From Aurantiochytrium sp. KH105 (Eukaryota > Sar > Bigyra > Thraustochytrida > Thraustochytriidae), in the NCBI GenBank assembly GCA_003116975.1, contig BGKB01000145.1:1-64000 (forward strand): a stretch of DNA of 64,000 bases. Reading direction: 5' to 3'. Below the pieces are notes generated by a model, which saw only the letters and a program-made list of their open reading frames with translations, ran no database searches and had not been told where the DNA came from. Below, piece after piece: positions 2,588-14,960 of the stretch. The translations under genes and the position numbers were made by a program. Numbering within the stretch: the stretch's first letter is position 1; each line of letters starts with the position of its first letter.

Positions 2588-4455
2588 TTAGTGTGAGAAC
2601 GACGTGTACGTGTTCGCTGGTTGCGCATCACGATTGACGTAGAGTTCACCGAGATCGCTCATGTAGCGCATGGTGGGCCGGCCATGCGGGCAGTTCCAAG
2701 GTTGCTTGAGCTGAGGCATGTTCCGCAAGACCTTGTACATTTTCGTGCGATCCAAGTCGGTCCCAATCATGATGGCGCGGCGACAGGCTCGACTCGCAAA
2801 CATGGCCCGGGTGCGCGGCAGCTGAGGAGGCACATACTTGAGCTGGTCGCGCATGTCTTTTGGAGGCGGAGGATTCTCGCGCAAAACCGAGGCCAACTCT
2901 CGCACGTCCTCTGGTCCGAACTCCGTCTTGAGGCTGTGAGGGATGCCCACAAGCCGCAAGCGCTGCGTGGCAGGAGTCACGACATCATCATCACCGTCCG
3001 TATTCGCGTGGTCGCTGGACTCGCCCGTCGCCGCATCCAAAGCAATCGCTTCTGGCGCGAAGCGGAACCCATTGTACTCGAAGATGTCGAGGTTGTCTCG
3101 AACAACTTGGGCGTCCGTGGCGCTAAGCTCGACTGGAAACGGCCGCATGAGTGGCTGGTGCTGGATCTTGGTGGTGATCTGAAGAGTCTCAAAAAGATAC
3201 TTTTCATCGCACGCATGCTGGTCAAAAATGAAGAGGTCTCTGTTGCATCGACCGATAATGAAGCCCTTATTGAATTGACCAATCACCTCAACCTTGGCAA
3301 AGTCCCGCTTGCCAAACACGCGCTCGCTCCCTCGGCCTTCCTGGCCTTGCTTTCCGCCTCTAGATGCTGCTGCTCCTGCTGTTGCTACTGCTGCACCAGT
3401 GGCGCTCGCGGTTGCCCTAGATGCCTCGAATTCCTCATCGACGCCAATATCGTCGTCGAGCCCGGGAACAGCGCGACGACGACCGCTACTAAGACTTCCC
3501 TGTGTGCTGGTTTCAATGTCAGCACTCCTTTTGTCGATAATGCTCGCACTGTCACTTTCACCAGTGCGACTGCTTGCTCCGTCGGCAGGTTCCACGTCGA
3601 TGCCCCGAAGAAAAGGGGCCATCTTGGCCTCGTCTTGAAGCTGAGCAGCAATACGAGTCATTGAGCTGGTGCGCATGGCCACGTAGTCGGTGCGGAAGCG
3701 CTTGAGGTTCGGTAGCTCAATCACATTGTCATCGCCGTGCGTCAAATCGAGGAGCGTACCATCCTCGAGATGCTGCTGCGGGGACGCCGCCGTGACTCGT
3801 TTCCTCGGACGGGATCTCGGTGGTGGCATGGACCGGTCCACACGCGGAGAACTCGACGCGCGTTTGGCCTTTTTCCCCGGCGAGGATGGCGATCCCGGTG
3901 GTGGCGTCGCTTGCGGCGTCCGAACACGCTTCCTGCCTTGCGGAATGTGCGGGCTTTCCTCGGTGTCAGATTCGATACCGAGTGCATCTTCGTCGTGACC
4001 ACTCCGTTCGTGTCCAACTGCGCGTGTCACGGCGCTCTTGCCTTTCGCTCGGGGTATCGGCCGAACTCCCTGTTTGCGTGCTTGGGCTTGTGCTCCTGCT
4101 TGTTTTCGCACATTCGCCTCGGAACCATCCATGGCCTCATCATTGGCATCGTTTTGCTCGCTTTTATCATCATCGTCGTCGTCGTCGTCGTCGCCGCCGC
4201 CGCTTTCGTTGTCTTCGCCTTGACCTCCATCAATCGCAACTTCGTTGTCATCCTCATCTTGATCGTCGCCAACAAGCGCGCGAATACGTTCGATGCGGTT
4301 TCGCGATGTCGAGTTTCCAAACAGTTCGCGATCTAAACTGCCAAGTGAACCTGTGGAATGCTGCTGACTTTCGGGTCCCCCCGATGCAACGGATGTTCGT
4401 TTCTTGTGGCTCTTGTTGCCGGCACTGTCGTTGTCGACATCTCCTTCGCCGACGG

Positions 4456-4531
<76 letters not shown>

Positions 4532-6568
4532 GGCATTATCATCACCCTTCTCTCCACGATGATCTAAAGTGGCGCTTGTGCTTGCGTTGACATTGCGATC
4601 TCTTGCAGGTAAAGCATCCATTTGGCTTGCAGAGACAAGCATCTCCTCCTCGTCGCTAATATCGCCAGAACGATGGCCACTTGTTTCGCCGCCGCGCTGG
4701 GCACTTCCTGCGCCTGCACGGATAGATAGACCGCCTGTAGAGGCAGGCGTTGGCGGAGGAGCCGCTGGTAATTTTGACTCTGTAACCTCTGATGCAAAGG
4801 CCTGCGACGACAATTTCTGCTTTGCTGGAGTACCAAGACCAGACGCGAGGTTGCCGCCAAATGCGGCAGCGGCAGCTGCAGCTGAAGTAGAAGCGGAAGA
4901 GGTGTTCCACAAGTCGCGCACGGTCTGCGACTGAGTCATGATGTTATCGTCCCGCTTCCACAAGTCTTCAAATTGTGTTTTGAGCTGCGCAAGAAGAACC
5001 TCCTCGCCGACGAGAAAGACTTCGCGCTTGTCCGGCGTCACATTGATGTCATACGATCCGGGTGGGACGATCCAATTGAGGAAAATTGCAGGTTTGTGTT
5101 TCATCTCGTGCTGTCTGTACACACTGTTGATGATGCGCGATCCTTTGGAAAAGTCAACAGGCCGCCCATTAATGTACCAGAATTGGCGGTCACTGCTCCC
5201 GAGGCCAATGCCTCCCCCAACTTTGGAAACGAACCCTTGAAGCTTGATATGGTTCGAAGAAGCACCGTTGCCCATGTCGTTCTTATCGTTGTCATCGTCG
5301 TCGTCGTCGTCATCATCGTTCTCGCCTTTAGCATCGATCGCGATCCTTTTACCAGTCGCTCTTTTCTTGACGTTGTCGCCATCGCCATCGCCATCGCCGT
5401 CACTATCGTCGTCTTCTGCCCCCACAGCGTCTGGGTCGAAGCCCGCCTGTGCAAAAGGACGTGCCTTTGGCCGTTTGCCTATGCGTGAATCCGTTGTTCT
5501 TGGCTGCTTCCCCGCGGCAGTTCTGAGCGCGTCCTCCGACTGGAGTTGCATGTCAATGGGCTCGAGACTGTTTGCAAGGCTCACACCGAAAAGGGAAGTG
5601 ATACTCGCCTTGATTGTCTTGGCCCCGGTGGTCTGTAACATGATCTTTTTGTTGGTTGCAGAGGTGTGATGTGTGCAAGAGATGCGCACTCCTGAGCACA
5701 TGACGGCGTACGCCTGGAGCAAGAGCAGCATGCGAGAAAATTGCGTTTTGATTGTCCGTTGAAATTCGCGACGACGTACAGGCAAGGTGCTAAAGAGCTC
5801 GCTGATTGTGATTTGCGTGCCGACCGTTCGCTGCTGCGGCGATTCGTCGAGCAGGGTGCCGTCGCGTCGAAAGGACGCACGCAGGCCAGCAATGTCATTT
5901 TCGGTGCGCGTAAAGACCTCAATGCCACCTTCGGGGCAAAGGTCGCACAAAGACGAGAGGGCCTCGCCACGGAAACCAAACGAGCGCACGCCCGCAAGAT
6001 CGTCAAAAGACGATATCTTGGATGTCCAGTGTTTTTGCATCATCTTCTCAAGGTTATCGCGCGACACTCCTGACCCATTGTCGGACACAGAAAATTTGGC
6101 AAGACCTTGTTTCCAAAGCGCGACCTCGATGCGCGTCGCCCCGGCGTCGAGGGCATTTTCCACGAGTTCCTTGACGGCTGTCGCAAGATTCGTGACGACC
6201 TGGCCCGAGCACATGCGCCGCACCACGGTCGCATCCAACGAGCCAATTTGTCGACCAGGAAGCTGCGATTCGTCGACAGTCTCTTGCCCGTTGCTTTCTT
6301 CGATGTCGTCCGCGTCCCCGTCCTCCTGTGGCTTGCTCTTGTTGTTCGCTTCATTGTGGTCGTTAGACGCAGAGGCTGTCGGTGGTGGAACAGCAGCGCT
6401 ATCGTCAACAATGTCTTTGGACTTGAGATGGACGTCCGTACGACTCGAGACGCCGCGGCCCGATTCGCGCTCCCCGGCGACTTCACTAGCTTTCCCATCC
6501 TCCGCGCCCGCAAGGTCGTCGCTAGCGTTGGCGGCGTGCTCGCCACGTTTTGCGGTTCCGCCGACCAT
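2588..6568 (-). CDS. PMS2: DNA mismatch repair endonuclease PMS2 (MutL homologue; yeast Pms1 type)
   Basis: This is the MutL-alpha subunit that nicks the daughter strand after MutS recognition of a mismatch. Residue numbers count from the ATG at 6568; the frame extends three codons further only through a TTG. A charged 105-residue leader precedes the GHKL ATPase domain, which has [15 protein letters not shown], the DNGSG box and [12 protein letters not shown]. The transducer domain (about 322-537) ends with [11 protein letters not shown] and [10 protein letters not shown]. It is interrupted by an acidic insertion of about 95 residues with polyaspartate. A disordered linker of about 550 residues with polyalanine and polyaspartate follows. 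The C-terminal endonuclease domain has [12 protein letters not shown] near 1116, an ACR motif near 1262 and CPHGRPT near 1293, all metal-site motifs of active PMS2. Total length 1326 exceeds human PMS2 (862), mostly through the linker. Confidence 0.96.
4457..4527 (-). repeat. Trinucleotide runs (TCA)n then (CAG)n inside PMS2
   Basis: On the plus strand a short TCA run passes into about eighteen CAG units. On the coding strand these specify polyalanine followed by polyaspartate in the disordered PMS2 linker. Further GTC/ATC runs near 4160-4200 and 5290-5320 give more Asp runs. Confidence 0.9.
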
Positions 6569-7528
6569 GACAGCCAAATGCGCGATGCCTCGCGCAGCCG
6601 AAGGCGTCTTCGTTCTCCTCTATTTTCTTTGTTTCTCCTCCTGCGCGTACTTGCTGCCTCAGCGCGCCTGCGCGTGGAGCAGCAGCAGCGGCTTCTGCGC
6701 CGCCTGGAGGCCCCGCAACGCGCTCTGCCCCGACGTCAGCTTGATCAAAATCTGAAGCGCGATTTTGCTCTGCTCGTTTTGGGCAGAACAAAAGCCGAGA
6801 TTTCATTTCTCGAGCACAAGCGCTAAACTTTGTAGGCCAGCCCCCTTTCGAGGTTGTTCACCACCGGAGTCGCTCGAGGGAAGTCGTCCCCATGTACGTA
6901 TACTGAAGAAGAGGAGAGGGTGAGTTTGCGCGTGACGAGACCTTTGATGTGCCGGGTGCTGGAACGAGCAAACTGCACTGCATATGCGCCCCCAAAAAAG
7001 TCCCAACCCGTTTCCCGTGTTTTTCGTAGAGGACTCATCGGGAGGCAATGGCCTTCTTGAAGATTGCGTAGCGAGCGAGAATAAGAGTTCTACTTTGTAG
7101 CGACTTACGCTGGCTGCGCCAATCTGTGACGTGAAGAGAGGCGAGAGAATGATCATATCATCGCAGAGGGCTGAGGGACAAAGTAAAGTTCGTGTCTTTG
7201 CTACAGGAGGAAAAGCCTGATGCCATTTGCCAAGCTCTGTGCATGTCTCTCTTTCTCTTTTTCTTTTCCAAATGATTGTTTTACCTTTTAGGTCGAAGCC
7301 CAAGCGAGGCCAGAAAAGGCCAAGGCCCGTGCGAACGCAAAAGAGTGTGCTTCCATCCATGCATCCATCAATCCATCCATCCATCCATCCATCCATCCAT
7401 CCATCCATCCATTCATTCATTCATTCATTCATTCATCGGAAACCTTGTAAAAGCCTAGATCTCATCGAAATGTGTTTGCGCACGAGGCACGCAAACTGCT
7501 CGATCGTGAAAAGTCCTCGCAACCGTCG
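6569..7528. other. Intergenic spacer between ClC-1 and PMS2
   Basis: This is the upstream region of PMS2 and the downstream region of the first ClC gene. No coding region could be supported. The only clear structure is a CCAT/CATT microsatellite at 7351-7436. Confidence 0.6.
7351..7436. repeat. (CCAT)n to (CATT)n compound tetranucleotide microsatellite
   Basis: Perfect CCAT units switch to CATT units. The short reading frames that cross it give only Ile-His-Pro-Ser or Phe-Ile-His-Ser repeats and are not taken as genes. Confidence 0.95.
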
Positions 7529-9688
7529 TCAATTTGATGAAGGTGGTTTTTGCCGCAGCGCCGCAAGCGCACGGAGGCCAAAGGCGAGACCGCAGGATGT
7601 GAGATGTGCCGTGATGCAGGCCATGAAAATTGGCGTAGCCTGCGAAGGACCAAGATTGAAGGAAAAGGCGATCATGAGCAAAAAGGTGAGCGGAACAGGA
7701 GCAACCGCAGCTGGCACGGCAGCCGTGAAGCAGGTGTCGGCCAACAAGAGCGGGAGAATATCTTGATCATCGATGACTCGCGCAAACCCGAGACCTACCG
7801 AGGATCCAATGAAAATGAGCGGAAATATAGCGCCGCCGACGAATCCAGAAGCGTTCGAGACGCCAAAGGCAAGTGACTTGAGAATTGCAGAGACAAAAAG
7901 CGTCTCGGGGTCGATGAGATGGACCGCTGCGAGCTTAGAGAGACCGGCCGTTTGTGTGCTGCCACTGCCGATGGTGAGAGGCGCAGCAATGGCAAGAAGA
8001 CCAACGAGTGTACCTCCTAGTACAGGAAGAATGACGTTTGCTGTGCGCGGATTCCGAATCACCTTGGTCTCGAGAAGCCCAAAGCATAATTTGGGGATTC
8101 CAGCGAGGAAAATGACATGGACAAAACCCACAACGCCAGCCACGATGCCGATGATGGCGCCTCGGAATTGATCGCCAACTTCGAACTGATGGGAGAGCTC
8201 GAGCGGATTTAAGGGAAGATAGGTCTTTCGAGCTAGGGCAAAAAAGACAGCAAAGGAAGTCGAAGCAGCAACTGTCATCATGCAGACTGCGCGCATGTAC
8301 CGCAAGTGCATTGTCTCCATGCGGCCGACTTCGAGCATGGCGACTACCGAAATGATCGGACTCGGAAAGAGCCCGCCCATTGCTCCAGCCATGCCATTGA
8401 CGACATTTTGTTGAGTCATTTCGGACGAGAGGCCGCGATATTCGGACCACGCCTGACCGAGGCCGCCCCCAAGAGATCCCATGGCCGCTTCGGGCCCCAA
8501 TGAAACTCCGCCGCAAAGAGATAGGAAAGACACGAGGACAACTTTTGCCGCCTCTTTGGGATCCACATGCTGCGCCTTGACCTCAGCGAAAAATCCACTC
8601 GTCTCGGCAGGAAAGTTGACGCCCAGCCGTACAAGGCCAACAACAAGTCCCATGCCCGAAGTGAAGGCCAGCCAGAACCACTCGCCCGTTCCGAGCCCAA
8701 CGGCCTCGGCCTCCGTAATTGAGGGGACGATCACATCTTCCCCAAATACGGCTGCTTGTAACTTTTCGATGGCCGTCAAGTACGCGTAGGCAATCAGGCC
8801 CATGACGGCACCAATGATGAGGCAAAGGCCAACGTGCTTCCAAAACGATGCTTCACCTGCGTACTTGGGAAACAGATTATCAAGCGGACGTTCTTTCGGA
8901 GCGTTGGACTCGTCTGCACCTGCCTCTGCAGGTCCCCCTGAACGTGAACTAGTTGCTTTTGCGCGATCTTCGTGATGATTCCCAGCATCGACGATGACCA
9001 TGTGTGTATCATCGATCGAACGGACGAGAACGCCGCTCGTGTCTGTGCTTGGCAGCGTCTGGGAGAAAATGCTTCTATCACTCGCTGGTGAAAGGTGCAC
9101 TTCTTCATTGTCTATCATTTGCCGCGGTGTATTGTCCAAAGGTTGCCCCTGCGATAAAGTATGCGCGTCTTTCGCCTCGACTGAATGCGAATCCTGCGCC
9201 GCAGCCCAATGGGTCTCAAGATGTTTCTCGATTTGTTTGGAGAGGGCGATCTGCCCCTCCTCAGAGTTGATGATGTCTTCCTTGCGATCCTCAGGAATGT
9301 CGAGGCTAAGGAAATATGTAGGCTCGCGCGCGTCTTTGACGAAGGCAGCGTTTTGACGTTGGTGCACTTCGTGGAGAAGACGTGAAGCGTGGCCCAGGCT
9401 CTCTTGACGACCATTCACATACCAAAACTGCGCGGCTCTCTCTGGTTCGTCTTTGGAGCCGCTGTGGCTCTCTGACTCTTTGGCAGCGGAAGAAACGAAG
9501 CCTCCAAGTTTGACCTCGCATGGATGTCCTGTTTTTCGAAGGTCAACCTGAAGAGTCGCCTTGACGGGCGTCAGCTTGTGTGCCTGCTCCAAAAGGTTTG
9601 CGACTGCTCCTGTATCTGTGTCTTTGGGTGTCTTTTGCAGGGGCGATGCCAGGTCGCCAACGCTGCTTGTGCGCGTCTTCGTCGGCAT
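7529..9688 (-). CDS. ClC-family chloride channel/transporter with N-terminal MutL-like domain (ClC-1)
   Basis: The protein is 719 residues from the ATG at 9688; a TTG would add 29. Residues about 275-719 form a complete ClC membrane domain: the SLGPEAAMGSLGGG helix near 396, the GAMGGLFPSPIISVVAMLE segment, and the late GGAIFPLIF motif near 619 matching GGxFxP. There is no CBS domain, unlike most eukaryotic ClCs. The gating-Glu motif GREGP reads VSLGP here, so the usual Glu is Leu. Residues about 27-161 are not ClC. They resemble the MutL transducer domain, with KLGGFVS, QFWYVNGRQE and a SRLLHEVHQRQ helix that align with the PMS2 encoded next door. The frame is continuous between the two parts. 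The gene is a tandem paralogue of the ClC gene just upstream. Ion selectivity and membrane cannot be told from sequence. Confidence 0.9.
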   Translation of the reverse strand: MPTKTRTSSVGDLASPLQKTPKDTDTGAVANLLEQAHKLTPVKATLQVDLRKTGHPCEVKLGGFVSSAAKESESHSGSKDEPERAAQFWYVNGRQESLGHASRLLHEVHQRQNAAFVKDAREPTYFLSLDIPEDRKEDIINSEEGQIALSKQIEKHLETHWAAAQDSHSVEAKDAHTLSQGQPLDNTPRQMIDNEEVHLSPASDRSIFSQTLPSTDTSGVLVRSIDDTHMVIVDAGNHHEDRAKATSSRSGGPAEAGADESNAPKERPLDNLFPKYAGEASFWKHVGLCLIIGAVMGLIAYAYLTAIEKLQAAVFGEDVIVPSITEAEAVGLGTGEWFWLAFTSGMGLVVGLVRLGVNFPAETSGFFAEVKAQHVDPKEAAKVVLVSFLSLCGGVSLGPEAAMGSLGGGLGQAWSEYRGLSSEMTQQNVVNGMAGAMGGLFPSPIISVVAMLEVGRMETMHLRYMRAVCMMTVAASTSFAVFFALARKTYLPLNPLELSHQFEVGDQFRGAIIGIVAGVVGFVHVIFLAGIPKLCFGLLETKVIRNPRTANVILPVLGGTLVGLLAIAAPLTIGSGSTQTAGLSKLAAVHLIDPETLFVSAILKSLAFGVSNASGFVGGAIFPLIFIGSSVGLGFARVIDDQDILPLLLADTCFTAAVPAAVAPVPLTFLLMIAFSFNLGPSQATPIFMACITAHLTSCGLAFGLRALAALRQKPPSSN
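9206..9610 (-). other. MutL transducer-like (S5 fold) segment inside ClC-1
   Basis: This segment encodes residues about 27-161 of ClC-1. Landmarks in order match PMS2 residues about 327-537: a leading helix (VANLLEQAHKL against [11 protein letters not shown]), the strand LGGFVS against LQGFVS, QFWYVNGR against [15 protein letters not shown] against SRIINSV, and a strand before IPEDRKEDI where PMS2 has the conserved INVTPDKRE. The ATPase domain is absent and the TPDK box is degraded, so no repair activity is expected. The similarity was read by eye. Confidence 0.75.
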
Positions 9689-10294
9689 TTGTCTGTCTCT
9701 GACGTAGAAGCGACTGCGACGAGGCCGGGTCTTGCTTGCGCGCGTCCGGCGTCCGGCGTCCTTATCACGTGCCAAAACGATCGATTCGGCTTTTGCTTCG
9801 TCTCGCGCACGGAGAAGAAGGAGAGAAGAAAGAGGGCGAGCGAGGGAAAGCGTCGGGCCGTGTCCACAGCCGCGCGCAGCCAGCTGCAGGCAGAGAGCGA
9901 TGGCGCGCTGAAAGGCGGCGGTGATTGCAACGCCCTCACCTGCGCGTTCGACTCGCTTTTGCGTCGCGCTGGATCTGGGACATCACACCTTCACCTTGCA
10001 AGCATCATACAGTAGGCAAAAAGAGTCAGCGAGTGCTGAAAAGATGGCAAGTCTGTACGTAGTATAGCTCCCACCCACTGTCGGCCAAGCGCGTGTGATA
10101 CTACTAACGAGCTCCGAGTCATCACTGTTTGTTTGTGAAAAAAACACCGCAAGAGAGGTTGCATCCCATTCTCACAGTCGACGTCAGGATGTTGCGAAAA
10201 TGTGCTCCCCCCCCCCGCCCCGCCCCGGAAAAAAAATTTGTCAACAGACAAGCGCTTTTGTTTGATTTTGATTTCGACAACCTTTACCACGAGC
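9689..10294. other. Intergenic spacer between the two ClC genes
   Basis: About 600 bp upstream of ClC-1 with a short poly-C/poly-A patch near 10207-10240. I see no recognisable coding remnant, including no trace of a MutL ATPase domain. Confidence 0.5.
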
Positions 10295-12494: not shown

Positions 12495-14960
12495 TCAGAC
12501 TTCGGACTCGTCGGTAGCATCAGCAGAGTCAACGGAAGCAACTTGCGTGGATATGGCTTTGTGCGAGCTGCTCACGACCGCAATCTGGTGGAAGCCTTTG
12601 CGGCGTGACGCAGCAATGTTACTTTGCTTCTCGCGGATCTTTTCCATGCACTCCTCCTGGAATTTGGCGTCAATAATGCCCTGATCAGCCAGATCTTGAA
12701 TGTAGCGAACTTCACTCTCTACAACGGCATTTGCGACTTTGATTACGTGAATATGCCCGACAAGCTCCTCGTTGTCCCTGACAGCGTAAGTAAGAAGATC
12801 TTTGGCCTTCTCACGAAGATTCATGCTTTCCTGAATTACAGTTGCTTCCTCGGGGGTATCCACCTTTGCCGAATCACCGAGGTACTCTGCGAGCTTTAGC
12901 TCTGCCGCAGCGTGGGCTTCCATGTAGCAAGTCGCCATGTAGACGGCCTCTTCGCGACGCGCGTTGATGAGTCGATTTTGCAAGTAGTTGTCGAAAACGA
13001 TGCATTCAGGAAGACAGGCATCGATCACATCGAGAAGTCTTTCCAAGAAAGGACTTGCGCTTAGGCGATTCTCCAGTCGGAGCGGCGAGAGGTCGTCGAG
13101 CTTAACCCTGACATCATCGCCAGCGATGTCGACCGCGTCGAGCAGAATGACCGCAGCCTCGCTCTTGCGCGGAAGTCTTCCGCCCTTGATTTGTTCCCAG
13201 TATTGTGCGCGAACAAGGTCGAGGAACATCGTGCGTACGCTGTAGAGAAGTTCCTTGTTGTTGCAAGCTTCACTAGCGTATTCTTCCACGTCCTTTTTGA
13301 AAGCCTCGTAAGACTCGTCCTTGTCGGGGCTGTGCGGCGAACTCACAGGGCCTCCGCGACGCTCTTCGTCCGTGAGGTCTTCAATTTGCACGAGATCTGC
13401 CACATCTTCGAGCCTGACTTTCCGGTACGTTGGATCTTCTTTCATTGTCTTGACAACGGCGATGGCATTCGCTCTCACGCGTTTTTCCACATACTTATGA
13501 AGCGTTTCCTGAGCTTCCGTGTTGGTTGTGAGCTTGAGGAATTTCAAAAGGTGAACAAAGATGATCTGATTGACTGTGATCGTGAGCAGGACGATGCAGC
13601 CCACGACGAAGAAGAACTTGGACAGTGCAGCCTCATAATCGGAGCCGAAATGAATGGTGAGCTCGTCCTCATAGTCGGTATTATCAGTAGAGTTGAGTAC
13701 GACAATGGCGAGGGTGATCGTGACGGCGCCCCGAACACCGCCAGCAATCGTCGCTGCCGCATCCTGCCAAGTAAAATTCTTTTTGGTGGCCCACTTGAGA
13801 AGAGGAAAGAGGACAATGACGACAACAAAACGCGATAAGAAGAGGAGAAACCACATGATGAAGACGTTGGCAAAGTCCCTCCCCGTGAGATTGCTGGCCT
13901 CGAGGGCATTGTAGGTGTTGCCGCCAAGGATGAGACCGGCGAGAAGGAAGATGAGCGTGTTGCCAATGTACTCGATGGCAGACCAGACGTTTTCCATAGT
14001 CTCGCGCTGAGCGAACTTTGGCCAGGCATACTTGGCGAAGACGGCGGCGGCAAAGACGCTGGCAATAATGCCGTTGCTCCCAAAGTTGTGTTCCGAGACG
14101 AGAAAGGACAAGTAGGCAGTGACGATGGTAATCGTAATTTGCGTCATGACGTCGCTACTGCGAGTCGGCGAGACGCTCTGCTTGATGGCAAAGTAGCCCA
14201 CGAGCCCAAAGACGATGCCGACGAGAGGAGCCACAAAGAGGAGCTTCGAGACGTACTTTGCGATTTTGTTGGGTTTGGACAAAAAGTACGATCCATCGGT
14301 GACTATCTTGAGAAAGACATTGAAGATTGCTAGCACGCTGAGGTCAGCCAGGTGACTCTCGGAGCTCATGAGCAATGTCAGGCGTGAGGGCGCTCCGGAG
14401 CTCTCCAGGAGAGCGACGATGCTGACTGGATCCGTGGCGCCCATGACTGTGCCAAAGAGAAAGCAAGCGTACCAGTCCCACTCGTAGCCGAGAGTCAAGT
14501 TTGCCGCAACGCCCATGAGACACCCAGAGATGACGACGCCGACGACGGCGAGAATGCATGCCGGCAAAAAGGCCGTGGTCAGAAACTGGTGCATGTTGAT
14601 GCGCATGACGTCAGAAAAAATGAGGCTGGGAAGGAAGACGGCCATGAGCAAGAAGGGATCGATTGTGATCCAGGACTCGATCGACGTGCTGAGCTCACCG
14701 AGGCCAACGGCGTAGTGCAAGACCCCCAGGGCAATACCCTCGAGGAACATGGCTGCGTTGTAGGGAAACCACGGCACGAATTTGAAGTGTCCCCAGAGCG
14801 AGAGCGCCCCCATGAGCAGGCCCACAAAGAGGAAGTACAAGGGCATGTAGGCCACCTCGCCGCTCCCCGCGAGCGCGCGGCCCTCCCCCGCGACGACGCT
14901 GGCGAGCATCTCCACGTCCTTGTCCACCGCAAGCGAGCTTACCAGCGACGACGCAGACAT
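12495..14960 (-). CDS. Na+/H+ exchanger, CPA1 family, SOS1/NHX7-like
   Basis: This is an 821-residue protein with about twelve membrane segments in residues 40-470 and a soluble C-terminus of about 350 residues. SOS1-type landmarks are DPFLLMAVFLPSLIFSD near 101-117, YEWDW near 159-163, ATDPVSIVALL at 175-185 and GGVRGAVTITLA near 400 (the family's GGLRGA helix). Known members exchange Na+ (or K+) for H+ at the plasma membrane and are central to salt tolerance. The transport-site motif ESLxND reads ESHLAD here: the Asp is kept but the Asn is Ala. The C-terminus lacks a recognisable cyclic-nucleotide-binding domain and is mostly charged helix. It lies next to two ClC genes, which suggests a salt-handling neighbourhood. 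Transcription diverges from the STAND gene. Confidence 0.92.
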   Translation of the reverse strand: MSASSLVSSLAVDKDVEMLASVVAGEGRALAGSGEVAYMPLYFLFVGLLMGALSLWGHFKFVPWFPYNAAMFLEGIALGVLHYAVGLGELSTSIESWITIDPFLLMAVFLPSLIFSDVMRINMHQFLTTAFLPACILAVVGVVISGCLMGVAANLTLGYEWDWYACFLFGTVMGATDPVSIVALLESSGAPSRLTLLMSSESHLADLSVLAIFNVFLKIVTDGSYFLSKPNKIAKYVSKLLFVAPLVGIVFGLVGYFAIKQSVSPTRSSDVMTQITITIVTAYLSFLVSEHNFGSNGIIASVFAAAVFAKYAWPKFAQRETMENVWSAIEYIGNTLIFLLAGLILGGNTYNALEASNLTGRDFANVFIMWFLLFLSRFVVVIVLFPLLKWATKKNFTWQDAAATIAGGVRGAVTITLAIVVLNSTDNTDYEDELTIHFGSDYEAALSKFFFVVGCIVLLTITVNQIIFVHLLKFLKLTTNTEAQETLHKYVEKRVRANAIAVVKTMKEDPTYRKVRLEDVADLVQIEDLTDEERRGGPVSSPHSPDKDESYEAFKKDVEEYASEACNNKELLYSVRTMFLDLVRAQYWEQIKGGRLPRKSEAAVILLDAVDIAGDDVRVKLDDLSPLRLENRLSASPFLERLLDVIDACLPECIVFDNYLQNRLINARREEAVYMATCYMEAHAAAELKLAEYLGDSAKVDTPEEATVIQESMNLREKAKDLLTYAVRDNEELVGHIHVIKVANAVVESEVRYIQDLADQGIIDAKFQEECMEKIREKQSNIAASRRKGFHQIAVVSSSHKAISTQVASVDSADATDESEV

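Follow-up and report, generated by a model that had tools for sequence, protein, structure and literature searches.

Three genes on the minus strand are considered here, within a window that comprises the whole analysed stretch of 64,000 nucleotides of Aurantiochytrium sp. KH105 DNA (contig BGKB01000145.1, positions 1 to 64,000): two ClC genes, ClC-1 and ClC-2, arranged head to tail, and a PMS2 gene downstream of them (Table 1). The ClC body of ClC-1 scores above the curated cut-off of PF00654 (24.8), and ClC-1 is most likely a ClC anion transporter; a CBS family is not listed for it in the Pfam scan. Each gene of the locus is found on two contigs of the genome, which appears to hold two diverged haplotypes. 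In the other haplotype (contig C67), the same ClC-1 gene is open, 96% identical, and carries a two-residue in-frame insertion.

Several neighbouring features deserve mention. A gene for a Na+/H+ exchanger (12495-14960, PF00999, 121 bits) lies directly upstream of both ClC genes on the same strand, and the exchanger and the two ClC genes possibly form an ion-homeostasis neighbourhood. The spacer between ClC-1 and PMS2 contains a tetranucleotide repeat of ATGG and ATGA units (about 7360-7435), and the transducer of PMS2 itself is interrupted by an acidic insert about 94 residues long (residues 346-439, positions 5261-5542 of the minus strand; dN/dS 0.32 between the haplotypes).

Table 1. Features of the ClC-1 locus (positions of the window)
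Feature	Positions	Strand	Basis or remark
ClC-1	7529..9688	minus	one 719-aa open reading frame, ATG 9688, stop 7529-7531; PF00654, 102 bits
ClC-1 residues 27-161, degenerate, likely PMS2-type MutL transducer domain	9206..9610	minus	sequence comparison; alignment-biased structure model
ClC-1 residues 162-272, variable linker	8873..9205	minus	dN/dS 0.85
ClC-1 residues 273-719, ClC transmembrane body	7532..8872	minus	dN/dS 0.17
ClC-2, tandem paralogue of ClC-1 lacking the transducer segment	10295..11746	minus	about 61% identity to ClC-1 over the ClC part
PMS2, MutL homologue: GHKL ATPase, transducer and MutL C-terminal domain	2588..6577	minus	open reading frame opens with TTG; first in-frame ATG 6568
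PMS2 residues 440-545, the bulk of the PMS2 transducer, resembling the ClC-1 segment	4943..5260	minus	
Upstream part of the Hondaea AUGUSTUS model, projected onto the window	9616..9983	minus	inferred by comparison of P0020 with the DNA

ClC-1 among its relatives

A tree of 14 ClC proteins unites ClC-1 with ClC-2, to the exclusion of P0003, P0004 and the outgroups, at a moderate ultrafast-bootstrap support of 81. ClC-2, its Hondaea counterpart P0002, P0003 and P0004 share the same full ClC body with ClC-1 (54-61% identity), whereas their residues 26, 27, 30 and 1, respectively, align with ClC-1 positions between residues 256 and 299; hence, ClC-1 is longer at its N-terminus by more than 200 residues, which include a foreign domain. 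For ClC-2, the alignment starts at residue 26 (of the 482 given), opposite ClC-1 residue 259, and at E <= 10 its Pfam scan does not include PF01119, the family of the MutL transducer, in agreement with the initial sequence-only reading, which had described the paralogue as devoid of this part.

A protein search with the ClC body, in which 7996 candidates were scored, yielded 17 relatives, 16 of them 413-488 amino acids long; the longest, P0018 (677 aa), has a ClC body and a weak CBS match, PF01119 being absent, and among the others P0002, P0003 and P0004 were inspected. With ClC-1 residues 1-270 as the query, none of 3293 candidates scored at E <= 10, the candidates being of 0.55-1.75 times the query length, a range that excludes P0020, the Hondaea protein considered below. 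No ClC-1 orthologue outside Hondaea and the present genome was found in these protein searches. A third ClC gene of the genome (L005, C240:46585-47853; L006, C213:18434-19702), with a 561-aa frame 31% identical to ClC-1, is not listed in the genome search with PF01119.

Relationship of the N-terminal segment to MutL transducers

In MutL proteins, the transducer domain relays the ATP-driven movement of the GHKL domain to the rest of the protein. The sequence-only reading had assigned residues 27-161 of ClC-1 to a degenerate domain of this kind; the four motifs it quoted are all present there, and these residues correspond to 9206-9610 exactly. A BLASTP comparison of ClC-1 residues 1-270 with the PMS2 of the window places residues 59-161 on PMS2 residues 444-540 with 28% identity (42.7 bits, E 2e-8 as a single comparison). 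The segment was further compared with 23 MutL proteins, namely 21 PMS2s (that of the window, P0021-P0039 and the PMS2 part of P0020), the genome's own MLH1-like protein (L007) and the genome's third MutL (L011). Residues 1-272 match 19 of the 21 PMS2s at E <= 0.01, always at the transducer, the two missed at this threshold being P0039 (E 0.15) and P0024 (no match). The MLH1-like protein gave 20.8 bits (E 2.2) and the third MutL no match, so that an origin of the segment from either of these two genes is rejected.

Profile searches gave a concordant picture. Three hidden Markov models of PMS2 transducers were built, from all 21 sequences, from 19 (without the window PMS2 and P0020) and from 17 (also without P0021 and P0022), the four sequences left out of the last profile being the closest ones (the transducers of P0020, P0021 and P0022 are 98, 67 and 69% identical to that of the window). 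The whole segment of the window haplotype scored 38.4, 39.2 and 38.4 bits, respectively, the best domain spanning residues 34-165 or 35-164, and that of the other haplotype 36.5, 37.4 and 36.0 bits. The proposed profile check came out positive with the PMS2-specific models and below the cut-off with the general one: PF01119 is the best Pfam family for the segment, yet stays under its cut-off of 26 bits, with 12.8 bits (E 0.091) for 270 residues, 14.7 bits (E 0.023) for 147 residues and 20.3 bits (E 4.3e-4) for the other haplotype. In the scan of the whole 719-residue ClC-1, PF01119 is not listed at E <= 10; phmmer of the segment against the PDB sequences gave nothing at E <= 10, and the NCBIfam scan of the segment returned no family.

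The low PF01119 score and the missing PDB match are what would be expected if the resemblance to MutL had arisen by chance in an N-terminus under low constraint. We consider this extremely improbable, given that the maximum score over 20,000 shuffles of the segment was 9.7 bits with the three profiles (9.3 bits with the 17-row one) versus 38 bits for the real segment, that 19 of the 21 PMS2s match at the same place, and that the segment is the sole non-MutL match listed genome-wide with PF01119. The latter search covered 76 Mb in 367 contigs, with seven first-look candidates scored, and listed seven matches at E <= 10. Six of them are the three MutL genes, each found on two contigs, and the seventh is the ClC-1 segment on C67 (E 0.023); the copy in the window was absent from the candidates. 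Accordingly, the homology of the segment to PMS2-type MutL transducers is significant and, as far as sequence comparison goes, well supported by the 38-bit profile match, by both haplotypes and by Hondaea, as is its descent from a transducer of this type. The label "PMS2-type" itself is likely to be correct, considering that the comparison included only two MutLs other than PMS2 and that the 20 relatives were gathered with a PMS2 query.

The third MutL is a divergent gene (L011, C191:78810-79178; L012, C239:47908-48276) with a 738-aa open frame and a PF01119 score of 47.8 bits; it may be of the MLH3 or the PMS1 type.

The segment deserves to be called degenerate, as it was at the outset: 15 of the 37 near-invariant PMS2 columns are retained, among them the motifs G63, S66, Q87 and N92-G93-R94. 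The ATP-contact loop DxNxxPxKR has decayed. Its D, N, P and K are present in all 18 PMS2 rows of the alignment, whereas ClC-1 has S128, D130 and E133 at the D, N and P columns and R135 at the column of the ATP-contacting lysine. The surroundings differ as well. Unlike the PF01119 transducer of known MutL structure (PDB 1EA6, residues 234-364), the ClC-1 copy has no GHKL ATPase before it and no MutL C-terminal domain after it, and precedes a membrane transporter instead; neither the GHKL ATPase family nor the MutL C-terminal dimerisation domain is listed for ClC-1 at E <= 10, and in the spacer upstream of ClC-1 the 23 MutL proteins gave no tblastn match of the GHKL type at E <= 0.01. With the GHKL domain absent and the ATP loop decayed, a role in relaying ATP-driven movement is not possible for ClC-1 alone. 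A structure predicted with the 18 PMS2 rows, an alignment that biases the model, has a pLDDT of 70.4 and a pTM of 0.60 and matches MLH1, PMS2 and MutL best; the prediction made without the PMS2 rows has a mean pLDDT of 39.5.

Gene models and translation of the segment

The same transducer-ClC sequence is found in Hondaea fermentalgiana, where it is contained in P0020, a protein of 2012 amino acids named "DNA mismatch repair protein PMS1", and is followed by PMS2. Over 690 residues, P0020 is 95% identical to the window copy of ClC-1 and 98% identical to the C67 copy. The possibility of an assembly chimera was considered and ruled out, since the two haplotypes and the independent Hondaea assembly agree. 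P0020 and P0002 are both listed with a contig of 473,675 bases and so probably share one record. P0020 corresponds to window positions 2588-9983, with the ClC stop codon skipped in the model; its projection onto the window starts at ATG 9983, with a short exon (9953-9983) and a predicted GT-AG intron (9616-9952) that joins within ClC-1 codon 25.

P0020 joins all three parts, and could be taken literally, i.e. transducer, ClC and PMS2 would make up one giant protein as in the Hondaea database entry. We deem this very improbable. The Hondaea genes were predicted by AUGUSTUS, with RNA not mentioned in the genome paper (PMC5854782), so that neither the merged model nor the codon-25 intron amounts to transcript evidence. 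A single protein would also require splicing out of the ClC stop codon together with the spacer, in which the haplotypes diverge by 7.2% and are set apart by indels of 52, 17, 8 and 7 nucleotides, and P0021 (976 aa, a transcript product whose transducer is 67% identical) encodes PMS2 alone, which argues that the merge in P0020 is wrong.

A more serious question is whether the segment is translated in ClC-1 itself. Besides Met 1, the only in-frame methionines ahead of the ClC body are Met 191 (ATG 9118) and Met 230 (ATG 9001), which are possible alternative starts. Should one of them be the real start, ClC-1 would be a transporter of ClC-2-like length, 490 residues with Met 230, and the segment would be an untranslated, decaying fossil in the 5' leader. 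The substitutions between the haplotypes fit such a fossil in so far as dN/dS of residues 1-272 is 0.59, not significantly below 1 (P 0.13), and their ratio of nonsynonymous to synonymous differences, 20:10, exceeds that of the ClC body, 9:18 (Fisher P 0.017). The codon usage of the segment is weak, too: in the ClC-1 frame, it yields 0.01-0.08 nats per codon, compared with 0.07-0.11 for the upstream spacer together with the start (240-base steps) and with 0.13-0.25 for the ClC bodies, which, however, are part of the training set.

The indels, in contrast, speak for translation, as judged from the sequence. All 272 codons are open in both haplotypes, and these 816 nucleotides contain a single 6-nucleotide indel and no frame-breaking one; judging by the three flanking spacers, where 17 indels, 13 of them frame-breaking, are found in 2,266 aligned nucleotides, 4.7 would have been expected (P 0.009), although the 87 nucleotides upstream of the ClC-1 ATG (9689-9775) are free of frame-breaking indels as well. 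The same frame is kept in Hondaea, and a non-coding relic at 28% identity would be expected to carry stop codons by now. In residues 41-161, the haplotypes differ at 2.75% of bases, as compared with 4.0-7.2% in the three spacers. In view of both lines of evidence, we regard the untranslated fossil as a real possibility but not as the likely state of affairs.

Within the segment proper, dN/dS is 0.49 for residues 27-161 (7 nonsynonymous and 4 synonymous differences in 134 of the 135 codons), not significantly below 1 (P 0.21), and 0.65 for residues 41-161 (7 and 3, respectively). The segment evolves faster than the ClC body with its 0.17; the PMS2 transducer has 0.18 and the PMS2 linker 0.96. 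This substitution pattern allows for a slowly decaying appendage.

Origin and possible role of the appendage

The whole course of events that we favour, with a probability of about one half, can be envisaged as follows. In the lineage of Hondaea, a ClC gene beside PMS2 would have been duplicated in tandem, so that a piece of PMS2 ended up between the two ClC copies. Everything of this piece except the transducer domain would have been lost, and the remnant would have become the in-frame 5' end of ClC-1. Translation would then give a ClC anion transporter whose N-terminus is an S5-like domain in the cytosol, followed by a loose linker. Lacking a GHKL ATPase and having a decayed ATP-contact loop, this domain would be unable to transduce ATP binding; it may survive as an appendage that is folded for the most part and weakly selected. 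Any effect of it would be on the assembly, trafficking or gating of ClC-1 rather than on repair. The data show the homology, the single open frame in both haplotypes and in an independent assembly, the head-to-tail order of the two ClC genes, and an evolution of the segment that is relaxed yet keeps the frame; that the segment is translated, lies in the cytosol, arose by duplication and has a function is what we infer.

The grouping of the two ClCs and their head-to-tail order with PMS2 mean that the remnant sits where a duplicated ClC-PMS2 unit would place a copy of PMS2. Between ClC-2 and the ClC-1 body, tblastn detected no part of PMS2 besides the transducer at E <= 0.01, and no similarity to PMS2 is seen in this interval at the DNA level, which makes the case for the duplication route circumstantial; the few tblastn matches in other frames there (E 0.04-0.63) look like chance ones. 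A recent copy of the neighbouring PMS2 was also considered as the source and is ruled out by the lack of a DNA-level match. A tree comprising the 21 PMS2s and both segment copies has the segment on a branch of length 3.09, next to a node with a support of 46; in this tree, confined to PMS2s and the segment, the latter is not placed near its own PMS2, and a source PMS2 is not indicated. Descent from the neighbouring PMS2 by duplication is a proposal drawn from the gene order and from the grouping of the two ClCs.

The domain might, alternatively, have been put to use. It is tempting to suggest, quite tentatively, that exaptation turned the transducer into a functioning regulatory domain in the cytosol, which would have kept its S5-like fold and lost its ATP coupling, and would control the assembly, location or gating of ClC-1, possibly via a MutL-type partner. 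In the related form of recruitment for regulation or docking, e.g. through dimer contacts or partner binding, the idea seems doubtful to us. Whereas the ATP loop has decayed, the fold has retained its core motifs, and the dN/dS of residues 27-161 lies between that of the ClC body and those of the two linkers; with 11 differences available, however, this constraint is not statistically significant, no partner is known, and the distribution of ClC-1 is confined, in our searches, to Hondaea and the present genome. Provided that the domain has a function, ClC-1 would contain a MutL transducer that operates apart from an ATPase, and we know of no other such case.

Under the duplication scenario, the locus would illustrate how a new multidomain protein can emerge from the neighbourhood of a repair gene, an ion transporter having apparently acquired a MutL domain through an event beside PMS2, and ClC-1 would display an intermediate state, with weak constraint, the ATP loop gone and the structural core kept. 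The initial suggestion that such a fusion is undescribed holds to the extent that no description of a ClC-MutL fusion was found in the portions available of the best-ranked matches listed from the literature on ClC architectures, labyrinthulomycete ClCs and MutL fusions; it has to be amended in that the sequence was already public, unrecognised, in P0020, whose name reveals neither the ClC nor the extra transducer and which, as opposed to ClC-1, is predicted as one gene with PMS2. A merged public gene model of this kind would mislead inventories of both repair genes and transporters. Another join of a membrane protein with PMS2 is seen in P0025 of Achlya hypogyna (1224 aa), a PMS2 model that ends in an EamA transporter domain (PF00892) and is perhaps a merged gene model as well.
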